DNA of 33,610 bases from positions 1 to 33,610 of IMG/VR virus record IMGVR_UViG_3300028829_004918, one strand, 5' to 3'. The notes under the pieces were generated by a model. It was not told where the DNA came from. It made no database searches and saw only the letters and a program-made list of their open reading frames with translations. A program made the translations under genes and the position numbers. This document shows positions 11,747-22,200 of the stretch, piece after piece; positions within the stretch are counted from its first letter, which is position 1, and each line of letters opens with the position of its first letter. The stretch comes from a virus.

Positions 11747-12982
11747 TAGAAGAAATTTTCTCGCCGCTCTATCTGCCGTATCAATGGCTCGTCCCGCAGC
11801 AGCCGCAAAAGAAGCTACCAGAGGCAAATCCACCATGCTTATCTGGCTGTCTGGTGGACCCCCAACTATTGACATGTGGGACTTGAAGCCCGGCTCTAAG
11901 AACGGTGGACCATTCAATCCAATTTCTACCACCGGAGATTTCCAAATCTCAGAAAAGATGCCACTACTCGCTAAATCTGGCAAAGACTTCTCTATCGTGA
12001 GAACTATGTCAACGCGAGAAGCAGAACTATGTCAACGCGAGAAGCAGACCACGCCAGAGCATCTTACTTCATGCACACCGGCTATGTCCCCAATCCTTCT
12101 ATCAAGCACCCATCTATAGGGTCAATTGTAGCTAAAGAGGTTGGACCCGCCCTTCCTGACCTAGAAATCCCCGCATACTGCTCCATTGGGAAGAACAAGT
12201 TCGGTGGAGGCTACTTAGGTGCTGAATTCAACCCCTTTGTAATCAACACTGACGGTAACGTTCCCAACATTGGTAAGGCTATCAAACCAAGCAGGTTAAC
12301 GCTGTTGAACATGATTGAGGAACAGTTCTCCAAGGGTAATCGCGGAGACCTTCCTGACGAGCACAGAAGATTGGTTAACAAGGCTGTTCAGTTAACTACA
12401 AGTAAGCAATTGGAGTCAATCAAGGTGCAGTATGAGCCACAGGTGGTTCGCGATGCCTATGGCGACACAACGTTTGGGCAGTCAGTGCTAATGGGGCGAC
12501 GTCTGATGCAAACGGGAGTACCTTTCGTTGAAGTCAATTGGGGAGGGTGGGATTTACATGTAGATGTTCACGGCAGACTTGAACAGAAGTTGCCAGAGCT
12601 GGACAGAGTTGTCTCATCTTTGTTTTCTGACCTGAAACGCTTGGATATGTGGCACGATACGGCTATTATCATCATGGGCGAATTTGGACGCACTCCGAGG
12701 ATTAATGCAAATGCAGGACGAGATCACTGGGCTTCAACTTGGTCGGCTGTTATTGGGGGAGGGCTATTCCACGGCGGTAGGGCATATGGAAAGACTTCGC
12801 CTGATGGAAAAAGTATCTCTGACGGAAAACCGTTTACAGCTGGCGACCTTCTCTGCACAGCTTATCAGGCAATGGATATCGACCCGGAAAAGCTCTACAT
12901 GAGTAAGAGCGGAAGACCTTTGAAACTAGGAAATGGTGGGAGAACTATCAGTGGACAATGGGATGATAAGAGAAGAACTTAA
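11739..12982 (+). pseudogene. Tat-exported DUF1501 family protein, frame broken by a 23-bp tandem duplication
   Basis: DUF1501 proteins are sulfatase/phosphatase-like (alkaline-phosphatase superfamily) exported proteins abundant in Planctomycetes. The N-terminal frame opens with a Tat signal, SRRNFLAALSAVSMARPAAAA, then IWLSGGPPTIDMWDLKP and runs to FSIVRTMSTREA; it then reads about 30 foreign residues and stops at 12119. The rest of the domain continues in another frame: STREADHARASYFMHTGY, then GEFGRTPRINANAGRDHWASTW and ISGQW to 12982. Removing one copy of the 23-bp repeat gives 1221 bases, a 406-residue intact protein with the expected junction READHARASY. So the gene is either switched off, recently broken or misassembled; all other features look functional. 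The family is secure and the cause of the break is not. Confidence 0.9.
12001..12046 (+). repeat. perfect 23-bp tandem duplication inside the DUF1501 gene
   Basis: Two identical 23-base units (12001-12023 and 12024-12046) beginning GAACTATGTCAACGCG follow each other without spacer. The following two bases also match, so a slippage or recombination event could remove either copy seamlessly. The unit length is not a multiple of three, which shifts the frame in the middle of the conserved TMSTREADHAR segment. Confidence 0.95.
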
Positions 12983-13722: not shown

Positions 13723-15129
13723 ATGACAGAGTGGTTTCCGCTACACAACAGGACTCATTACAGCTTGTTAAAAGGGTTCTCAAAACCGGAAGAATTAGTA
13801 AAAAGGTGTGTAGACAATGGATATAGGTTATGTGGAATTGCTGATTTCAAGTCTCTTGCAGGAACAGTCGCGTTCAGCAAGAAATGTGACGGAGCCGTGC
13901 AAAAAACCTGCTATGTAGATCAGTCGCAAGCTGAGCTGCACAGGATTCTACTGGCTTCTGAAATGAAAGCCACTCTAAGAAAAGCAAAGAAGCTCGCTGC
14001 TGGAGAAGAAGACTTCTGGTGCAAGGAATTTTTCCTCACGGACAATTACTACGTGCCCAACGCGGATGAATCCGCTACTATTAATGATCCAGAGGGTATG
14101 GCGATTCTTCAGGAGATAGAGAGTAGGCTTGAAGACTACAGTATCCTGAATCCGCCCATGCTTCCAACTTTCCCCACTCCCAATGGAGAAACTGAAGAGG
14201 AATACCTGAAGGAGATGTGTCGCGAGGGATGGAGAAAGTTTGTTAATGGTAACAACTTCTCAAAAGAGAAAAAGCAGGAATACCTAGACAGGTTCAACAA
14301 AGAGTTTAGTGTTATTGAAAATGCTAATCTGTTTGGCTACTTCCTGATCGTTCAGGACATTATGAACTATGCCAAGAAGAATGGCTGGATGACTGGTCCG
14401 GGGAGAGGCAGTGCCGCTGGATGCCTCATCTCATACCTCATTGGTATTACACAAATCGACCCTATTGAATATGACTTGATTTTTGAGAGATTCTTTAACG
14501 CTGGACGTTCATCAAAGGGTCACGTTTCGCTGCCCGACATTGATATGGACCTTCCCAAGAGATGCCGTCAAAAGATTGTTGACTACGTAAAAGAGCAGTA
14601 TGGGGAAGATCGCGTTTGTCAGATGATCACGTTGGGGAGATTGCAGGGGAGAAGTGCTGTCAAAGAGGTGGCTCGTGTAACAGAGGCATGTCATCACGCC
14701 GAAGTGAACGAAATCACCAAATACATTCCTGACGAAGCGGATATTGCAGATGAACTACAGGTGATGGATGAAGAAGACCGTTCCATTATCAGGTGGGCTT
14801 TGGAATTTGGCAACAAGAACCTGAAGGACTTTTGCTACATTGAAGATGGTGAGTTCCACGGACCTCACGCAGAGCTGTTTAAGACAGCAATTGAGATTGA
14901 GGGGACATTTAAGTCTCAGGGGAAGCACGCGGCTGGAGTGGTAATTTCTCAAGAGCCTCTTCAAGATGTGTGCCCAATGACTAGGGATAAAGAGGGAAAT
15001 CCTATCGCAGCCTTGGAGATGTCCGGATTGGAAGACTTGGGACATGTGAAGTTTGACTTCTTGTCTATTAACTATTTGGACAAGACAATGTGTACAGAGG
15101 AATTGATAGGAGAACGTACTAATGGCTAA
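13723..15129 (+). CDS. DNA polymerase III alpha (DnaE), N-terminal half: PHP remnant and palm
   Basis: Family C polymerase, first of two gene-encoded halves (468 residues). It opens with a PHP-like segment, FPLHNRTHYSLLKGF, in which the second histidine of HxHS is replaced and a long middle part is missing, so PHP metal binding is unlikely. The palm follows: GYFLIVQDIMNYAKK, TGPGRGSAAG, catalytic D272 and D274 in SLPDIDMDL, the QGRSAVKEVARV segment, GKHAAGVVIS and the third catalytic aspartate D445 in VKFDFL. The protein stops 23 residues later, exactly where family members run on into the fingers. The fingers are in the gene starting at 15799. It overlaps the exonuclease start by eight bases (ATGGCTAA). 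Confidence 0.9.
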   Translation: MTEWFPLHNRTHYSLLKGFSKPEELVKRCVDNGYRLCGIADFKSLAGTVAFSKKCDGAVQKTCYVDQSQAELHRILLASEMKATLRKAKKLAAGEEDFWCKEFFLTDNYYVPNADESATINDPEGMAILQEIESRLEDYSILNPPMLPTFPTPNGETEEEYLKEMCREGWRKFVNGNNFSKEKKQEYLDRFNKEFSVIENANLFGYFLIVQDIMNYAKKNGWMTGPGRGSAAGCLISYLIGITQIDPIEYDLIFERFFNAGRSSKGHVSLPDIDMDLPKRCRQKIVDYVKEQYGEDRVCQMITLGRLQGRSAVKEVARVTEACHHAEVNEITKYIPDEADIADELQVMDEEDRSIIRWALEFGNKNLKDFCYIEDGEFHGPHAELFKTAIEIEGTFKSQGKHAAGVVISQEPLQDVCPMTRDKEGNPIAALEMSGLEDLGHVKFDFLSINYLDKTMCTEELIGERTNG

Positions 15130-15802
15130 CAGAGACTTCGTGGTTTATGACTTTGAAACTGGCGGAAGAGACCCTGATACGTGTCAGCCGACACAGTTGG
15201 CGGCAATTGCTCTTGATGGACGTACCCTACGTAAGAAGGGTGAATTCCAGTCAATGATCAGGGCTGAGATTGATGACGATAAAGCTATCGCAGCGGGACT
15301 TGGACCCCTTGAAGAGGGTGCTCTGAAGATTACTGGTCACACTAGAGAAGAAATTGACGCGGCTCCTTCGCTAGAGTCTGTATGGAAGCGTTTTGGGGCT
15401 TTCTGTCTCAAATACAATTGGAAGAAAACACCGTTCTTCGCCCCTATTCCTTGTGGGTACAATATTATTGGCTATGACAACGTTATTGCCAAGCGTCTTT
15501 GTAAAAAATACGGTCCTTGGAGCGATAAAGACAACTGCCCCACTATGTTCAGCAAAGTATTCAAGATGGACATTATGGACATGATGTATATGTGGACGGA
15601 GGCAGACCCAGAAGTTAAGAGTATCAACATGGCTGCTCTCCGCAAGCGTTTTGGTATGTCATCTGAGGGAGCACACGACGCTCTACAGGACGTGAAAGAC
15701 ACGGCGAACATCATGATCAAGATGCTGAGAACCCACCGTGCTGTGTACAAGAACCTCGAAATTGACGATTGCTTCAAAGGAAAGGACTTGTTCATCAAAT
15801 GA
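15122..15802 (+). CDS. DEDDh 3'-5' exonuclease (proofreading-like), nested between the DnaE halves
   Basis: A 226-residue DnaQ-family exonuclease that removes mispaired 3' ends. DEDDh motifs are clear: Exo I VVYDFETGG (D10, E12), Exo II YNIIGYDNVIAKRL (Asp) and Exo III AHDALQDVKDT with H185 and D190. GGAG precedes ATG 15122. Length fits the DnaQ/epsilon domain, without the usual C-terminal clamp-binding tail I could recognise. Its start overlaps the end of the first polymerase half and its end overlaps the start of the second (ATGA at 15799). Position implies that it assembles with the split polymerase to form the proofreading holoenzyme. Confidence 0.92.
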   Translation: MANRDFVVYDFETGGRDPDTCQPTQLAAIALDGRTLRKKGEFQSMIRAEIDDDKAIAAGLGPLEEGALKITGHTREEIDAAPSLESVWKRFGAFCLKYNWKKTPFFAPIPCGYNIIGYDNVIAKRLCKKYGPWSDKDNCPTMFSKVFKMDIMDMMYMWTEADPEVKSINMAALRKRFGMSSEGAHDALQDVKDTANIMIKMLRTHRAVYKNLEIDDCFKGKDLFIK

Positions 15803-17361
15803 ACTTTTTGGATGACAAAACTTGGACACTATTGCAAGAGGGCAGGACTAAGGGTGTCTTTCAGCTAGAGAGTAATCTTGGTAAGAGCTGGGCTAAGAAA
15901 GTAAACCCATGCTCAATTGAAGAGTTGTCTGCACTCATTGCTATTATCCGCCCCGGTTGCTTGAACGCTATGTTTGACGGCAAGTCTATGTCCCAACACT
16001 TTGTGGATAGAAAATCCGGCAAAGACGAAACGCAATTCCTACATCCGTCTCTGGAGCCAATTCTCAAGACGACCTACGGAGTTCTTGTATATCAAGAGCA
16101 GGCGATGCGTATAGCCCAAGAGCTTGCTGGTTTCGACCTGATTGAGGCGGATGATCTAAGAAAGGCTATTGGTAAGAAGAAGGCTGACTTGATGGCTGAG
16201 ATTAAGATCAAGTTCATAGCTGGCTGCAAAACTACGGGCATTGTTACTGAGGAAGAAGGTGCGGAGATTTTCGGGTGGATCGAAAAGAGTGCTCGTTACT
16301 CTTTCAACAAATCCCACTCTGTATCCTACGCCTTCAACTCCTTTACGAGTGCTTATTACAAAGCCAACTATCCCATTGAATTCTTCGTATCTTACCTGCG
16401 ACACGCCAAAGATTCACCAAAACCGCACCAAGAAGTGTATGAATTGGTATCTGACGCCAAAATGCACGGTATTAACTCCTCGATGTGCAAAATTGATAAC
16501 CACGTTGAGGATTACTCACGAAGTGGGAACAACATACTGTTTGGTATCAAAAGCATTAAGGGTATGGGCAACATAGTTGGGAATCAGACTTGCCAAGCTC
16601 TTATCGACGGTCCTGCCGAGCTAGGTAAGGACTTGAAGAAAATGACTTGGCTGGAAATATTGTTATACATTGCCAGCAAGTGTTCTAAGACTGGTTTTGA
16701 GCCACTTTGCTCAGTGGGCTTCTTCAATACCACTCAAACCAAAATCAATAGAAACACCGCTCAGTTTGAATATGACACTTTCCGAGTTATCAACAAGTTG
16801 GAACTAGAGTGGGCTATTGAGCAATATCCGTCTAAGAAATGGAAGACTTTGAAAGACTGTCTCGTTGACCTCGCTCCCACTAAGAAAGAAGGCGGGGGAA
16901 CCAACACAGTTGGAAGACAGAAGAAGATACTTAACGAAATTCACTTCTTGGACAATCCCCCATATGAATTGGTGGACGACCCACAGTGGGTGGTAGAGTC
17001 AGAAATAAACCTGCTTGGTTGCCCCCTGTCTATGTCTAAACTTGAGACTTCCGAAACCGTTTTCACATCTAACAGCAGCTGCAAAGAAATTGTCGATGGA
17101 AAGCATGGCAGCAAGATTTCTGTAGCAGGAAACGTATACAGGGCTTCTCATCACAAAACCAAGAAGGGCAAGTCTGCGGGTGAGCTAATGAGCTTCTTAA
17201 CTATTGAAGATGAGTCAGGCTCTCTGGACAGTGTGGTAATATTCCCAAAGGTTCGCAAGCAATACTCGCACTTACTGTACGAAGGAAACAACCTATTGTT
17301 CCACGGCGAAGTCAAGCGTGGAGAAGGATCACTTTTGGTGGAAAAAATACATGAAATTTAG
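15799..17361 (+). CDS. DNA polymerase III alpha (DnaE), C-terminal half: fingers and OB domain
   Basis: Second half of the family C polymerase (520 residues), starting at ATG 15799 within the exonuclease stop. It begins MNFLDDKTWTLLQEGRTKGVFQLES, which in single-chain DnaE directly follows the palm linker, then SALIAIIRPGCLNAMF, GVLVYQEQAMRIAQELAGF, LRKAIGKKK, FNKSHSVSYAFNSFTSAYYKANYP, and a helix-hairpin-helix-like region. The last 90 residues (SKISVAGNVYRASHHKTKKG, SLDSVVIFPKVRKQY) form an OB fold as in bacterial alpha subunits. No intein or intron remnant is visible at either junction. The two halves add up to 988 residues, near the family length after allowing for the shrunken PHP domain. 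Confidence 0.9.
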   Translation: MNFLDDKTWTLLQEGRTKGVFQLESNLGKSWAKKVNPCSIEELSALIAIIRPGCLNAMFDGKSMSQHFVDRKSGKDETQFLHPSLEPILKTTYGVLVYQEQAMRIAQELAGFDLIEADDLRKAIGKKKADLMAEIKIKFIAGCKTTGIVTEEEGAEIFGWIEKSARYSFNKSHSVSYAFNSFTSAYYKANYPIEFFVSYLRHAKDSPKPHQEVYELVSDAKMHGINSSMCKIDNHVEDYSRSGNNILFGIKSIKGMGNIVGNQTCQALIDGPAELGKDLKKMTWLEILLYIASKCSKTGFEPLCSVGFFNTTQTKINRNTAQFEYDTFRVINKLELEWAIEQYPSKKWKTLKDCLVDLAPTKKEGGGTNTVGRQKKILNEIHFLDNPPYELVDDPQWVVESEINLLGCPLSMSKLETSETVFTSNSSCKEIVDGKHGSKISVAGNVYRASHHKTKKGKSAGELMSFLTIEDESGSLDSVVIFPKVRKQYSHLLYEGNNLLFHGEVKRGEGSLLVEKIHEI

Positions 17362-17403: not shown

Positions 17404-17706
17404 ATGAATATCTGTACCATCACCGGCTATGTCCTTGGCGATATCACGGTGACCTACGAAAACAACGAGCCTGTAGCGGAGTTTACACTCGCTGTTTATC
17501 AGTTCAGGAAAACCAAGGCCGATGGTAGCGAAGCGGAGATTGAGTCTCAGCTGGACTGCGAGGTCTGGTCGACAGGAGCCGAGGCTTTCAGCAAGATAGC
17601 CAAACCGGGTTCCAAAGTCACTATCAACGCTAGTGCCAAAAACGACCCACACAATAACAACAACGTGTTTTTCCGAGTTAACCAATTTGACGTTCATGAG
17701 GTGTAA
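17404..17706 (+). CDS. ssb: single-stranded DNA-binding protein
   Basis: A 100-residue OB-fold protein of the bacterial SSB type. It opens ICTITGYVLGDITVTY, then VAEFTLAVYQFRK, LDCEVWSTGAEAFSKIAKPGSKVTINASA and FRVNQFDV, which match the beta strands and the W/A..F.K..KG.V motif of SSB. It lacks the long disordered tail with the acidic DIPF end used by bacterial SSB to recruit partners, so it is a minimal version. GGAG precedes the ATG at 17404. It lies directly after the split polymerase and so completes the replisome set. Confidence 0.85.
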   Translation: MNICTITGYVLGDITVTYENNEPVAEFTLAVYQFRKTKADGSEAEIESQLDCEVWSTGAEAFSKIAKPGSKVTINASAKNDPHNNNNVFFRVNQFDVHEV

Positions 17707-17708
17707 CA

Positions 17709-19394
17709 GTGCGTAAGAAGCGAGTTTTATTTTGCGGAGAAGCCACATTCCTTAACACTGGATACGCGACGTACATTAGAGAGACGTTGAACTATCTACA
17801 CAGCACCGGGAAGTATGAGTTGGCAGAAATGTCCTCATATGGAGAAAGAAACGATCCAAGAGCAGACGGCATTCCTTGGAAGTACTACGGTGTGATGCCT
17901 AATACCACCTGTGAGCCTAAAGCCTCACCAGAAGAATTGCAGGATTACGAGAGTAAGCCATCTAACCAATTTGGCGAAGCCTTGTTTGAACATGTATGCT
18001 TGGATTTCCTACCAGACTTTGTCTGCGATATTCGCGACTTCTGGATGCTGGACTTTGCTGAGCGTTCTCCATTCCGAGATTACTTCAAGTGGGTGGTCAT
18101 GCCAACCGTGGACGCAGCTCCACAAGCTCGTCAGTGGATCGCTACGTATCAGTCTGCCGACGCCTGTCTAACTTACTCAGATTGGGCTGGAGGCGTCTTA
18201 ACGGAGCAATCAGGGGGCGAGATCAACTATCTAGGCAGCTCACCTCCATCCGCCCACCCTGCTTACAAGCCAGTAGCGGATAAACGTGCTCATAAAGAGG
18301 CTATGGGAATCGACCCAGATTCCATGATCATTGGCACAGTGATGAGGAACCAACGACGTAAGTTGTATCCAGACCTCTTCAAGGCATTCAGAAAGTTCTT
18401 AGATGACACAGGAAAAACAGACGTCTATCTCTATTGCCACACTTCTTACCCGGACCTTGGATGGGACATTCCTGAGCTGCTCCAAGAGCATGGACTGTCG
18501 TCAAAAGTCTACTTCACGTACATTTGCGGCGAAACTAAAAAGCCTTTCGTCTCTCTCTTCCGTGGAGCAATTACTCAGTCGCCATATACCGGGAAATGGA
18601 ACGCAGTTCTCACAAACGCGAAAATGGGTGCTAGTTATGAAAGCCTGTCAGACATTATTAACACATTCGACCTCTATGTCCAATACGCCAATTGCGAAGG
18701 GTTTGGACTCCCTCAAGTCGAAGCGGCAGCGTGTGCAGTCCCGGTAATGAGCACAGACTACTCTGCTATGGAGAGTGTTGTTAGAAAACTCGGAGGATAC
18801 CCTATCAAGCCGGTAGGTCATTACAAAGAGTTGGAGACGGGATGTATGAGGGCGGTGCCTGATAACAACCTTGCTGCCAAACTGTTCGCTGAGTTCTTTG
18901 AGATGACAGACGAAGAGAGAGATGTCCTTGGAAAGAGAACGAGGGCGAGGTTCTTAGAACACTACCAGTGGGACAAGAGCGGGAAGGTGTGGGAGAACTA
19001 CTTCGATTCCACCGACCCAATCGACATTCAGCAGTCTTGGCTATCTCAGCCTAAGATATCTCAATCGGAGCAGATGCCAGAGAAGATTGACCCTAATACT
19101 AGCCATCAGGACTTGGCTCGTTGGTTGATTGCTAAAGTGTTATGTGAACCTAACAAGTTGAATACTCACTTCGAAGCTAGACTGACCAGAGACTTGATGT
19201 ATAAATACACTACTGGAACCACAGGTGGGATGTACTATAATGAATCATCAGCTGCTTTTGACGGTAGTGCTAACAAGCATCCATTTAATCTCGAACTCGC
19301 TTACAAACACATGAAGGAGTTACTACATCGCAAGAATATGTGGGAACAAAAACGTGTAGACGTGATGAGAGCGAAGCAGAATGGTGCGGGCTAG
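17709..19394 (+). CDS. GT-B glycosyltransferase (GT4-like) with C-terminal extension
   Basis: A 561-residue protein from GTG 17709, with GAGGTG at 17698-17703. It begins with KKRVLFCGEATFLNTGYATYIRETL, the nucleotide-free N-domain of GT4 enzymes with the glycine-rich acceptor loop (TGYATY). The sugar-nucleotide domain shows IIGTVMRNQRRKLYPDL and the signature EGFGLPQVEAAACAVPVM with E330. GT4 enzymes transfer a sugar from a nucleotide donor with retention. The last 110 residues (from about 450) are not part of the GT fold and are unknown. First gene of the glycan cassette; donor and acceptor are not predictable. Confidence 0.88.
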   Translation: MRKKRVLFCGEATFLNTGYATYIRETLNYLHSTGKYELAEMSSYGERNDPRADGIPWKYYGVMPNTTCEPKASPEELQDYESKPSNQFGEALFEHVCLDFLPDFVCDIRDFWMLDFAERSPFRDYFKWVVMPTVDAAPQARQWIATYQSADACLTYSDWAGGVLTEQSGGEINYLGSSPPSAHPAYKPVADKRAHKEAMGIDPDSMIIGTVMRNQRRKLYPDLFKAFRKFLDDTGKTDVYLYCHTSYPDLGWDIPELLQEHGLSSKVYFTYICGETKKPFVSLFRGAITQSPYTGKWNAVLTNAKMGASYESLSDIINTFDLYVQYANCEGFGLPQVEAAACAVPVMSTDYSAMESVVRKLGGYPIKPVGHYKELETGCMRAVPDNNLAAKLFAEFFEMTDEERDVLGKRTRARFLEHYQWDKSGKVWENYFDSTDPIDIQQSWLSQPKISQSEQMPEKIDPNTSHQDLARWLIAKVLCEPNKLNTHFEARLTRDLMYKYTTGTTGGMYYNESSAAFDGSANKHPFNLELAYKHMKELLHRKNMWEQKRVDVMRAKQNGAG

Positions 19395-20100
19395 ATCATT
19401 TAATGATGTGACGGTAGTAGGTGTGGCTTGGGGGGACGACTATGTACGTCGTACCCTCAACGCCCTCATCTTTGGTGAGCAGCAGTGTGGTTTCGGTGCA
19501 AGGACATTGATTTGTCCAGCGGAGCAGGCTGACCAGTATCACCGATTGATGGACGAGTATCACATAGGTCACTATCACGTAGAGCCGATGAGTTCCAGAG
19601 AGTTCTCTAGGTTTATGGTGGAAGACCTACATATTCTCGCATCTACAGATTACCTCCTGAATATACAGCACGATACAGCTATAATAGATAGGGACAAATG
19701 GAAGCCAGAGTTTTTTGACTACGACTACATCGGATCGCCGTGGAAGAAGAATTGTGGATTCCAGAACAGAGTGGGAAATGGTGGGTTTTCACTAAGAAGT
19801 AAGCGTTTTCTGCAAGTATGCAGCGGTTTAGTGTATGAATCACTAACTGATATTGACTTTCACGAACACGCTCATGAAGATTGGTTCCTTTGCGTCAAGA
19901 ACTACAAACTCCTAATGGAAAAAGGAGTTGTATTTGCCCCTGTTGAAATTGCTGCTAAGTTCTCAGTTGAACACCCCATAGAAGAGAAATCATACGACCC
20001 GTTGGATTTGAGTACTTATGACGCCTTTGGTTTTCATGGCTCATTTAATCAAGCTGGTTACCGACTTTTAAGCGATAATTTGGAGACTGAAAAAGTATGA
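19381..20100 (+). CDS. DUF5672-like protein, probable glycosyltransferase
   Basis: The 239-residue product shows the core of DUF5672 proteins: LNIQHDTAIIDRDKW, FFDYDYIGSPWKKN, RVGNGGFSLRSKRFL and HEDWFLCV. These proteins are thought to be glycosyltransferases of GT-A type, in which the HDT/HED acidic residues and GNGGFSLR contact the donor. No biochemical role is certain. The ATG at 19381 overlaps the end of the first glycosyltransferase by 14 bases. It continues the glycan operon. Confidence 0.75.
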   Translation: MVRARSFNDVTVVGVAWGDDYVRRTLNALIFGEQQCGFGARTLICPAEQADQYHRLMDEYHIGHYHVEPMSSREFSRFMVEDLHILASTDYLLNIQHDTAIIDRDKWKPEFFDYDYIGSPWKKNCGFQNRVGNGGFSLRSKRFLQVCSGLVYESLTDIDFHEHAHEDWFLCVKNYKLLMEKGVVFAPVEIAAKFSVEHPIEEKSYDPLDLSTYDAFGFHGSFNQAGYRLLSDNLETEKV

Positions 20101-21221
20101 AAGTTCTGTTTATTGGTCATTACAAAGAGGGTGGTGGTTGGTCGAATGCCAGCGTTGATTTCATCCTAGCTATGGACCGCTGCGGTATTGACGTTGTGTG
20201 CAGGGATATCAAGCTTACTAACAAGGTGGTGGATGTCCCAAAGAGAGTGCTTGAGCTAGAGGCGGGAGACCCCTCTGATTGCACTGTCTGTATTCAACAC
20301 GTTCTTCCTCACCATATCGTGGGTTCTGACAAGTTTGAGAAGAACATCGCTTACGTTGAGACTGAGACCTTGAGCATTGAGCCGCTGTCTTGGGTAGAGC
20401 ACCTAAAGCTGGTTGATGAAGTGTGGGTTCCAAACCGATGGATGAAGGATGACCTATATCTGTTAGGCATAGAAACTAAGGTTGTTCAGCACACCCACGA
20501 TATTGCTAAGTACGAAAAAGAATACCCACCAATTAACATTCCACAGTGTGATGGTCGATTCAAGTTCTACTTCATTGGCGGCTTTGACGACAGGAAGAAC
20601 ATTGAGTCTATTGTGCGTTGTTTCCACTCAGAGTTTGATAAGAACGAACAGGTATCTTTGATACTGAAGGTCAACAAGTTTGGTATGAACCCCGAACAAT
20701 TGAGGGCACACGTCGACCAAATGATATCCAGAGTGAAGAACTCCCTACGCATGTATCCAAACGTGCAGGATTACATCAAAGAAGTAGTAATATCAGAGCA
20801 CGCCACTGAGGATAACCTATATGCACTGCATCAGCACGCAGACTGTTTCATTGCTCCTTCACACGGTGAGGCATGGTCTATTCCAGCCTTTGAAGCAATG
20901 TCCTTTGGCAAAACACCGATCTGTTCAAGATTTGGTGGTCCGAGTGACTTTATTGACAACGGCACTAGAGAGGCAAATGGAAAGGGAGCCTTAATAGACG
21001 GGGTGTACTCAATATGCACTTCTAAGGATGCCGCTTTCCCAGAGATGTTTACTGGCAGAGAAATGTGGTTCCAGCCTTGTGAGATGCAGATCAAAAACGC
21101 AATGCGTTTCTTCTATGAGAACCGCGACCCAGAGAAGTACAAGAAACAGGGCTTAGACAGAGCCAGAGAGTACTCTTACGAAAAAATTGGAAGCCTAATC
21201 AAGGAGACGCTAAGTGAGTAG
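20097..21221 (+). CDS. GT-B glycosyltransferase (GT4-like)
   Basis: A 374-residue protein starting by ATGA overlap. The N-domain opens MKVLFIGHYKEGGGWSNASVDFI, a GT4 start with a glycine-rich acceptor loop. The donor domain has FYFIGGFDDRKNIESIVRCF, then APSHGEAWSIPAFEAMSFGKTP with the E-x7-E motif, and RFGGPSDFI. The family transfers hexoses or related sugars from nucleotide donors. An insert after residue 300 (ISFTSK-like CTSKDAAFPEM) is longer than usual. It is most similar in layout to the gene at 17709 but lacks its C-terminal extension. Confidence 0.88.
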   Translation: MKVLFIGHYKEGGGWSNASVDFILAMDRCGIDVVCRDIKLTNKVVDVPKRVLELEAGDPSDCTVCIQHVLPHHIVGSDKFEKNIAYVETETLSIEPLSWVEHLKLVDEVWVPNRWMKDDLYLLGIETKVVQHTHDIAKYEKEYPPINIPQCDGRFKFYFIGGFDDRKNIESIVRCFHSEFDKNEQVSLILKVNKFGMNPEQLRAHVDQMISRVKNSLRMYPNVQDYIKEVVISEHATEDNLYALHQHADCFIAPSHGEAWSIPAFEAMSFGKTPICSRFGGPSDFIDNGTREANGKGALIDGVYSICTSKDAAFPEMFTGREMWFQPCEMQIKNAMRFFYENRDPEKYKKQGLDRAREYSYEKIGSLIKETLSE

Positions 21222-22200
21222 AAGAACCACGCAGATCATATCGCGAGTAGGCAAGCCTAAGAAGGTGTTTAACATTCTCACCTTTGACACTCATGAAAGA
21301 TACCAAACGCAGCTGGCTAAAACAGGTCACAACTTCTACTCATTCCAAGCTCCGCAGATGAAATCTTGGGACGAAAGATTCGCCCCCAAGCCGTCGAACC
21401 ACTATTCATTGCCTAACAACACTGTATACAACGGTCTTGATATCGACATCATTCTGTCTCAGAGCAAACATGGGCAATACCAAGCCGCTAGAAGAGTACA
21501 GGAAGTTCTTCAGGTTCCCCTGATGTGTTTGGAACATACCACTCCTAGCGAGGGTTTGTCTGACAAAGATTTCCACGCTCTTGCCTCGTGTTTTTCTGAA
21601 CACAACGTGTTTATTACTAACTACTCAGCGGCACAGTGGAAGTGTCCATTACAGTATAGTGTTATTCAACACTCAGTAGACACAGAGCTATTTCAGGAGA
21701 ACAATGGCGTTAGACCTAACGACATCATTAGTGTTGTGAACCAGTTTGAAAGCAGAGACTACTGCTGTAACTACAAAGGATGGAGACGTGTAGTAGAGGG
21801 ATTCAATTATGTTCTTATTGGAGACAATCCCGGACTGTCAGAACCAGCTGGAAATCCAGAGGTGCTGAGCACTGAACTATGTAGCTCAAAAATCTTTCTC
21901 AACACGTCCACTCATAGCCCGCTTCCAACCTCAATGCTGGAAGCGATGTCCTGCGGATGTGCAATTGTCACAACTGCGACCTGTGGAATCCCAGAGGTCA
22001 TCCAGAACAACGTGAACGGCTTTGCCAGCAACGATGAGGGCGAGCTGAGAGACAAGATTCAGGAGCTTCTTGACGACCCGGAGAAGGCAAGAGAGATGGG
22101 TAGAGCGGCACGTAAAACTATTGAAGAGAATTTCTCAGAGTCCGTCTTTGTGAACAATTGGAACATGGCATTCAACACAGTCTATAGGAGCGTTAAATGA
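21214..22200 (+). CDS. GT-B glycosyltransferase (GT4-like), variant active-site motif
   Basis: From GTG 21214 with AAGGAG at 21201-21206, 328 residues. The N-domain (KVFNILTFDTHERYQTQLAKTGHNFY) and donor domain (IFLNTSTHSPLPTSMLEAMSCGCAIVTT, then CGIPEVIQNNVNGF) match GT4 layout. The first glutamate of the E-x7-E motif is replaced (position held by P in HSPLPTSMLEAM), although the second is kept, so donor binding may differ. The final helix region (NFSESVFVNNW) is typical. It belongs to the same coupled set as its neighbours. Confidence 0.82.
   Translation: MSRRTTQIISRVGKPKKVFNILTFDTHERYQTQLAKTGHNFYSFQAPQMKSWDERFAPKPSNHYSLPNNTVYNGLDIDIILSQSKHGQYQAARRVQEVLQVPLMCLEHTTPSEGLSDKDFHALASCFSEHNVFITNYSAAQWKCPLQYSVIQHSVDTELFQENNGVRPNDIISVVNQFESRDYCCNYKGWRRVVEGFNYVLIGDNPGLSEPAGNPEVLSTELCSSKIFLNTSTHSPLPTSMLEAMSCGCAIVTTATCGIPEVIQNNVNGFASNDEGELRDKIQELLDDPEKAREMGRAARKTIEENFSESVFVNNWNMAFNTVYRSVK

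Follow-up and report, generated by a model that had tools for sequence, protein, structure and literature searches.

A family C DNA polymerase encoded in two pieces around a DEDDh exonuclease gene in a large group of uncultured phages

Family C replicases (DnaE, or Pol III alpha) are viewed as a single long polypeptide whose palm and fingers act as one machine. PolC of the Firmicutes is a single chain with an exonuclease inside its PHP domain, and the DnaE of cyanobacteria, which is encoded by two genes, is broken at the FNKSH site and healed by a split intein. Phage replication enzymes have also been found as two polypeptides with no intein. In T4-like phages, the split NrdA of Aeh1 (mobE) and the gp43A/gp43B polymerase of Aeromonas phage 25 stay active, and nuclease genes are associated with the break (PMC2988022). 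In jumbo phages of group 2.2, a minimal Pol III alpha is made as two standalone proteins that are proposed to reconstitute the enzyme, from genes that lie far apart and beside a family B polymerase (Iyer et al. 2021, PMC7824862). Here we describe a DnaE-type polymerase in virus record IMGVR_UViG_3300028829_004918, of which positions 1 to 33,610 (33,610 nt, called the window below) were analysed. Its gene is broken between palm and fingers, and a separate gene for a DEDDh 3'-5' exonuclease lies within the break. As in the genes-in-pieces of the T4-like phages, one enzyme is encoded by two open reading frames (ORFs) with no splicing element, and we consider it quite probable (about 0.82), from sequence comparison and structural modelling, that this is a genes-in-pieces family C replicase whose halves dock non-covalently, with the exonuclease encoded between them.

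The first gene (half1; 13723..15129, plus strand) encodes 468 residues, comprising a degenerate or truncated PHP domain (Pfam PHP at residues 7-59, 4.9e-8) and the palm (DNA_pol3_alpha at 160-447, 1.1e-71). The second (half2; 15799..17361, plus strand) encodes 520 residues from the ATG at 15799, comprising the fingers (DNA_pol3_finger at 3-146, 7.8e-44) and a C-terminal OB fold, which gives a weak Pfam match and is recovered by structure (Z 11-13, about residues 1095-1198 of the model described below); the gene stops at the OB fold. Between the two is the exonuclease gene (exo; 15122..15802, plus strand; 226 residues), which overlaps half1 by 8 bases and half2 by 4 (ATGA). The preliminary description of this locus had placed the catalytic aspartates D272, D274 and D445 in the first gene and the fingers and OB fold in the second, with a DEDDh exonuclease joined to both by 8- and 4-base overlaps, and all of this is borne out by the ORF coordinates, the domain matches and an alignment to the catalytic aspartates of Pol III alpha; D272, D274, D276 and D445 are kept in 172/172 relatives. 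The palm triad, the fingers and the OB fold are those of family C, and the enzyme departs from the single polypeptide that is usual in the family. It is a two-chain variant, since a single chain does not strictly define family C. The half1 of the window has lost about 65-80 PHP residues, with the frame intact, that are still found in relatives L002 (whose half1, L002:7720-9321, is 77% identical) and L003.

In single-chain DnaE the palm ends in KFDFLGL...; a helix comes next, and a loop whose length varies leads on to the PLDDK...FQLES of the fingers. The half1 chain terminates past this helix, 23 residues after D445 (its tail, 15058..15126, plus strand, corresponds to the helix), half2 opens at the DDKTW...FQLES part, and the loop between is the missing portion. 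In alignments to Taq alpha, half1 extends to residue 625 and half2 starts from 652, while in E. coli alpha half2 begins at 593. ORFs and alignments thus agree with the earlier placement of the break at the boundary of palm and fingers, and the aligned sequences put it in the connecting loop, coinciding with the variable loop of single-chain DnaE.

The break precedes the FNKSH site of the cyanobacterial protein by about 165 residues and, as had been supposed, no intein or other joining sequence was recognised at the break. Pfam gave no intein domain in the window halves and Rfam no RNA intron in the window. Across the relatives half1 ends 15-35 residues past D445, a tail that is accounted for by the post-palm helix and is too short for the usual N-intein. 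The half2 of the window has the fingers motif right at its start, and across the clade of the window half2 starts about 10 residues ahead of that motif, so that the break has no room for an intein. Covalent joining by a split intein of the cyanobacterial type is therefore extremely improbable, even though the family is no stranger to such elements: L088 and L156 match N-intein and cyanobacterial DnaE split-intein models at the FNKSH site, and L137 matches an N-intein model at PDID. By these matches the family bears inteins, though none at the palm/fingers break, and some relatives carry an intein-type break plus the intein-less one. Additional breaks at the FNKSH and PDID sites were seen in half2 of L088, L148 and L156 and in half1 of L137-L140, L070 and L071.

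The short overlaps, and the fact that both halves share one frame in the window, could also suggest that a programmed frameshift, readthrough or an RNA intron yields a fused polymerase-exonuclease-polymerase chain. That shared frame, however, contains 20 stops, the relative frames differ among loci, slippery heptamers occur in just 24/154 and 52/154 loci, and many relatives have independent genes inserted in their gaps, all of which makes a fused chain very unlikely. Because no joining element is present, the halves most likely associate without a covalent bond; the evidence is best explained by non-covalent reassembly, and from this we infer docking in vivo.

The arrangement proved to be widespread. 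Single-sequence searches of viral contigs gave no match for half1, one contig for exo and two relatives for half2 (84% and 56% identity, both in the order half1-exo-half2). With queries built from alignments the number of viral-contig matches rose above 550; the top 80 from each scan were retained. Once loci sharing an exonuclease sequence had been removed, 182 complete loci with distinct exo remained. The order half1-exo-half2 was found in 182/182, with one ORF per half in 169 of them; none of the 182 has a fused ORF, and no ORF is matched by more than one of the three profiles. These loci belong to a large group of uncultured, mainly aquatic phages and fall into two diverged clades. In a tree with 15 single-chain DnaE proteins (from phages and Salmonella) they group as a single clade with a long stem. 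The preliminary description had proposed a search for the same gene order among phage and metagenome proteins, and had named misassembly as an outcome that would overturn it; finding the order in 182 distinct loci from two clades disposes of the latter. An assembly artefact or a decaying pseudogene might still be suspected from the PHP deletion that sets the window apart from its relatives, and yet the invariant catalytic residues and a low ratio of nonsynonymous to synonymous substitution, together with the shared arrangement, leave this idea next to no credence, as it is already refuted by conservation. The ratio was 0.03-0.05 for half1, exo and half2, pointing to strong purifying selection, and rests on one unsaturated pair (L069/L090), the window and L002 being saturated at synonymous sites.

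In the second clade (L165-L244) half2 has a conserved N-terminal extension with an FxCGCxF motif, which fits its evolving as a separate protein. The half1-exo gap of that clade is about 150-200 bases, and in L161 and L162 a small ORF of about 60 residues lies there. Five contigs of bacterial metagenome-assembled genomes also matched: three were complete in the same order, one was cut off, and one was L164, binned as Phycisphaerales, in which a half2-like gene (L164:4293-6584) has an intein at FNKSH and both half1 and exo are absent from the 4.3 kb upstream. The bins are discordant (SAR202, Alphaproteobacteria, Flavobacteriales, Verrucomicrobiales and Phycisphaerales), and therefore no host is claimed.

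Structural modelling is consistent with a common fold. The shared frame of the window was read through its stops, giving a chain in which a linker of about 220 nonsense residues connects the two halves, and this was modelled with AlphaFold2 from 79 sequences, mostly unpaired halves. The model has a predicted template modelling score of 0.68, with low confidence chiefly in the linker (predicted local distance difference test, pLDDT, mostly 24-50) and in some short segments of the PHP domain and the C terminus. It superposes on entire DnaE-type Pol III alpha chains, with aligned residues in both halves, at Z 31-37 (27 for one mutant entry), over 717-765 residues with a root-mean-square deviation of 4-6 Å, and matches PolC more weakly (Z 19-28). 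The two halves thus appear to make up a single Pol III alpha core, a result that speaks for compatibility rather than proof.

The product of exo matches RNase_T in Pfam (1.1e-12) and phrog_192, a DNA polymerase exonuclease subunit, in PHROG. Its DEDDh motif consists of D10, E12, D119, H185 and D190, and its AlphaFold2 model (pLDDT 88) has a fold nearest to the DinG exonuclease, the PolC exonuclease (Z 19.6), RNase T and DnaQ (epsilon; Z 18.5). Among the relatives D119, H185 and D190 are kept in 182/182 and D10 and E12 in 178/182; at least three of the four loci that lack D10 and E12 have the motif just upstream of the called start, and the exo of L128 is apparently broken by frame errors. Cultured phages gave no tblastn match to exo at 1e-5. 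Since the PHP domain is degenerate, the exonuclease most likely provides proofreading for the polymerase, and we infer that it is a polymerase subunit. Alternatively, recombination may have left exo in the break with no role in the enzyme, much as genes for an FkbM methyltransferase, a UDP-glucose dehydrogenase and a glycosyltransferase also lie in the gaps of some relatives. We think this unlikely: those inserts come and go, whereas exo is the sole insert present in every complete locus, with its DEDDh motif intact, and exo genes also adjoin DnaE in other phages, upstream in Pseudomonas phage SN and downstream in L263. In the latter (gut phage MT835494) the DEDDh-type exonuclease gene follows DnaE immediately, and DnaE itself is interrupted near PDID, its first piece having an intein-like end as read by eye. 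A stronger version of the subunit idea, an obligate three-part family C core of palm, fingers/OB and proofreading subunits in which a coupled operon favours co-translational assembly and the break is functional rather than a tolerated scar, is put forward here as a doubtful possibility.

Fifteen viral contigs (132-224 kb) yielded no recognised PolA (family A), PolB (family B) or second DnaE, and because of this the split DnaE is probably the replicase of the phage group, as far as gene content can tell. The same 15 contigs gave no match to the tail sheath (PF04984) or beta clamp (PF02767), of which divergent versions may be present. The neighbourhood in the window has the gene content of a phage replication module. 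Upstream of half1 are genes for ribonucleotide reductase, PhoH, a UvsX-like recombinase, a DnaB-like helicase, a DnaG-like primase, a deoxynucleoside monophosphate kinase and a PD-(D/E)XK nuclease, and directly downstream of half2 is a gene for single-stranded DNA-binding protein (SSB; 17404..17706, plus strand; Pfam SSB 4.9e-9), a conserved neighbour that lies at most about 700 bp from half2 in 154/164 loci. A row of glycosyltransferase genes (17709-22200) comes immediately after SSB, and a homologue of the first one is near DnaE in 163/181 relatives. Within the replication region there is also a DUF1501 protein (12029-12982; 2.9e-67), with homologues near DnaE in 32/181 relatives.

Several points weigh against the reading of the locus as a non-covalent two-chain replicase with an associated exonuclease. 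AlphaFold was trained on Pol III alpha and may be reproducing the common fold from that training instead of deriving it, which is why the fold is taken as compatibility. About 180 of the more than 550 relatives were examined, picked by similarity, and the remainder may include a fused member. The DnaE tree was made by a quick method and has long branches; the large contigs may be incomplete; and the exonuclease could serve a different role.

The gaps between the genes bear on how the break arose. Among 116 loci in a first survey, 54 have no extra insert, 27 have one in the half1-exo gap, 23 in the exo-half2 gap and 12 in both; in L003, for example, an HNH endonuclease gene sits between exo and half2. 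Pfam found Endonuclease_7 in 16/67 gap ORFs, as well as HNH_3, NaeI and non-nuclease genes, and nuclease-like motifs were read by eye in 40/68 ORFs of enlarged gaps. Nuclease genes are thus frequent in the gaps of the relatives, as has been reviewed for the breaks of T4-like phages (PMC2988022), hinting by analogy that the break may have arisen when a homing-type nuclease invaded a conserved replication gene. The break in the window is without an endonuclease gene, and entry of the nucleases after the split is equally possible.

A cultured counterpart was found in a survey of 60 records drawn from across 1271 phages that have this region. Rossellomorea phage phiT1 (PV767480) was the sole sampled record in which two aligned pieces marked a split at this junction, its gp20 and gp18 (573 and 469 residues) being broken at the same loop. 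Unlike the window, it has a 49-residue ORF between the halves in place of the exonuclease, and it lies outside the split clade in the tree; the two splits are apparently independent. In Microbacterium phage Dauntless DnaE is in two ORFs with an earlier break. Alicyclobacillus phage KKP_3916 has its DnaE divided into four, and one of the interruptions holds a group I intron (RF00028).

With phiT1, the jumbo phages and the T4-like phages in view, the suggestion in the preliminary description that no such case had been described was too strong. The differences from these systems are nevertheless clear. The T4-like examples concern ribonucleotide reductase or a family B polymerase in few phages, whereas here the enzyme is of family C, has an exonuclease in the break and occurs in a large and diverse group; compared with jumbo group 2.2, the polymerase core is nearly complete, its genes are adjacent and no PolB was found. 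PolC likewise draws polymerase and DEDDh exonuclease from one locus, but in the window the exonuclease is a separate ORF between palm and fingers. The open-licence literature gave no description of a DnaE split without an intein whose halves flank an exonuclease, and what is new here is that genes-in-pieces extends to a replicase of family C, which carries an exonuclease gene inside its break and is conserved at the clade level.

The best account of the origin and working of this enzyme is that an ancestor of the phage group had its single-chain DnaE broken, most simply by a single event, at the loop between the last palm helix and the fingers. The halves would then be translated from overlapping, probably coupled genes with the DEDDh exonuclease between them, and the nascent halves would fold and dock without a covalent bond to form one active site, with the palm aspartate triad supplied by half1 and the fingers and OB fold by half2. 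The exonuclease most likely would contribute the proofreading activity. If this is correct, an intein-less two-chain replicase is viable as the apparently sole polymerase of a large phage clade, whose replicase gene belongs to a kind that has been repeatedly invaded, by nucleases, by inteins and, in one cultured phage, by an intron. The natural split between palm and fingers would be usable for mechanistic and protein-engineering work, phiT1 provides a practical, cultured test system for a DnaE broken at this loop, and it becomes testable whether the interposed exonuclease belongs to the polymerase core.
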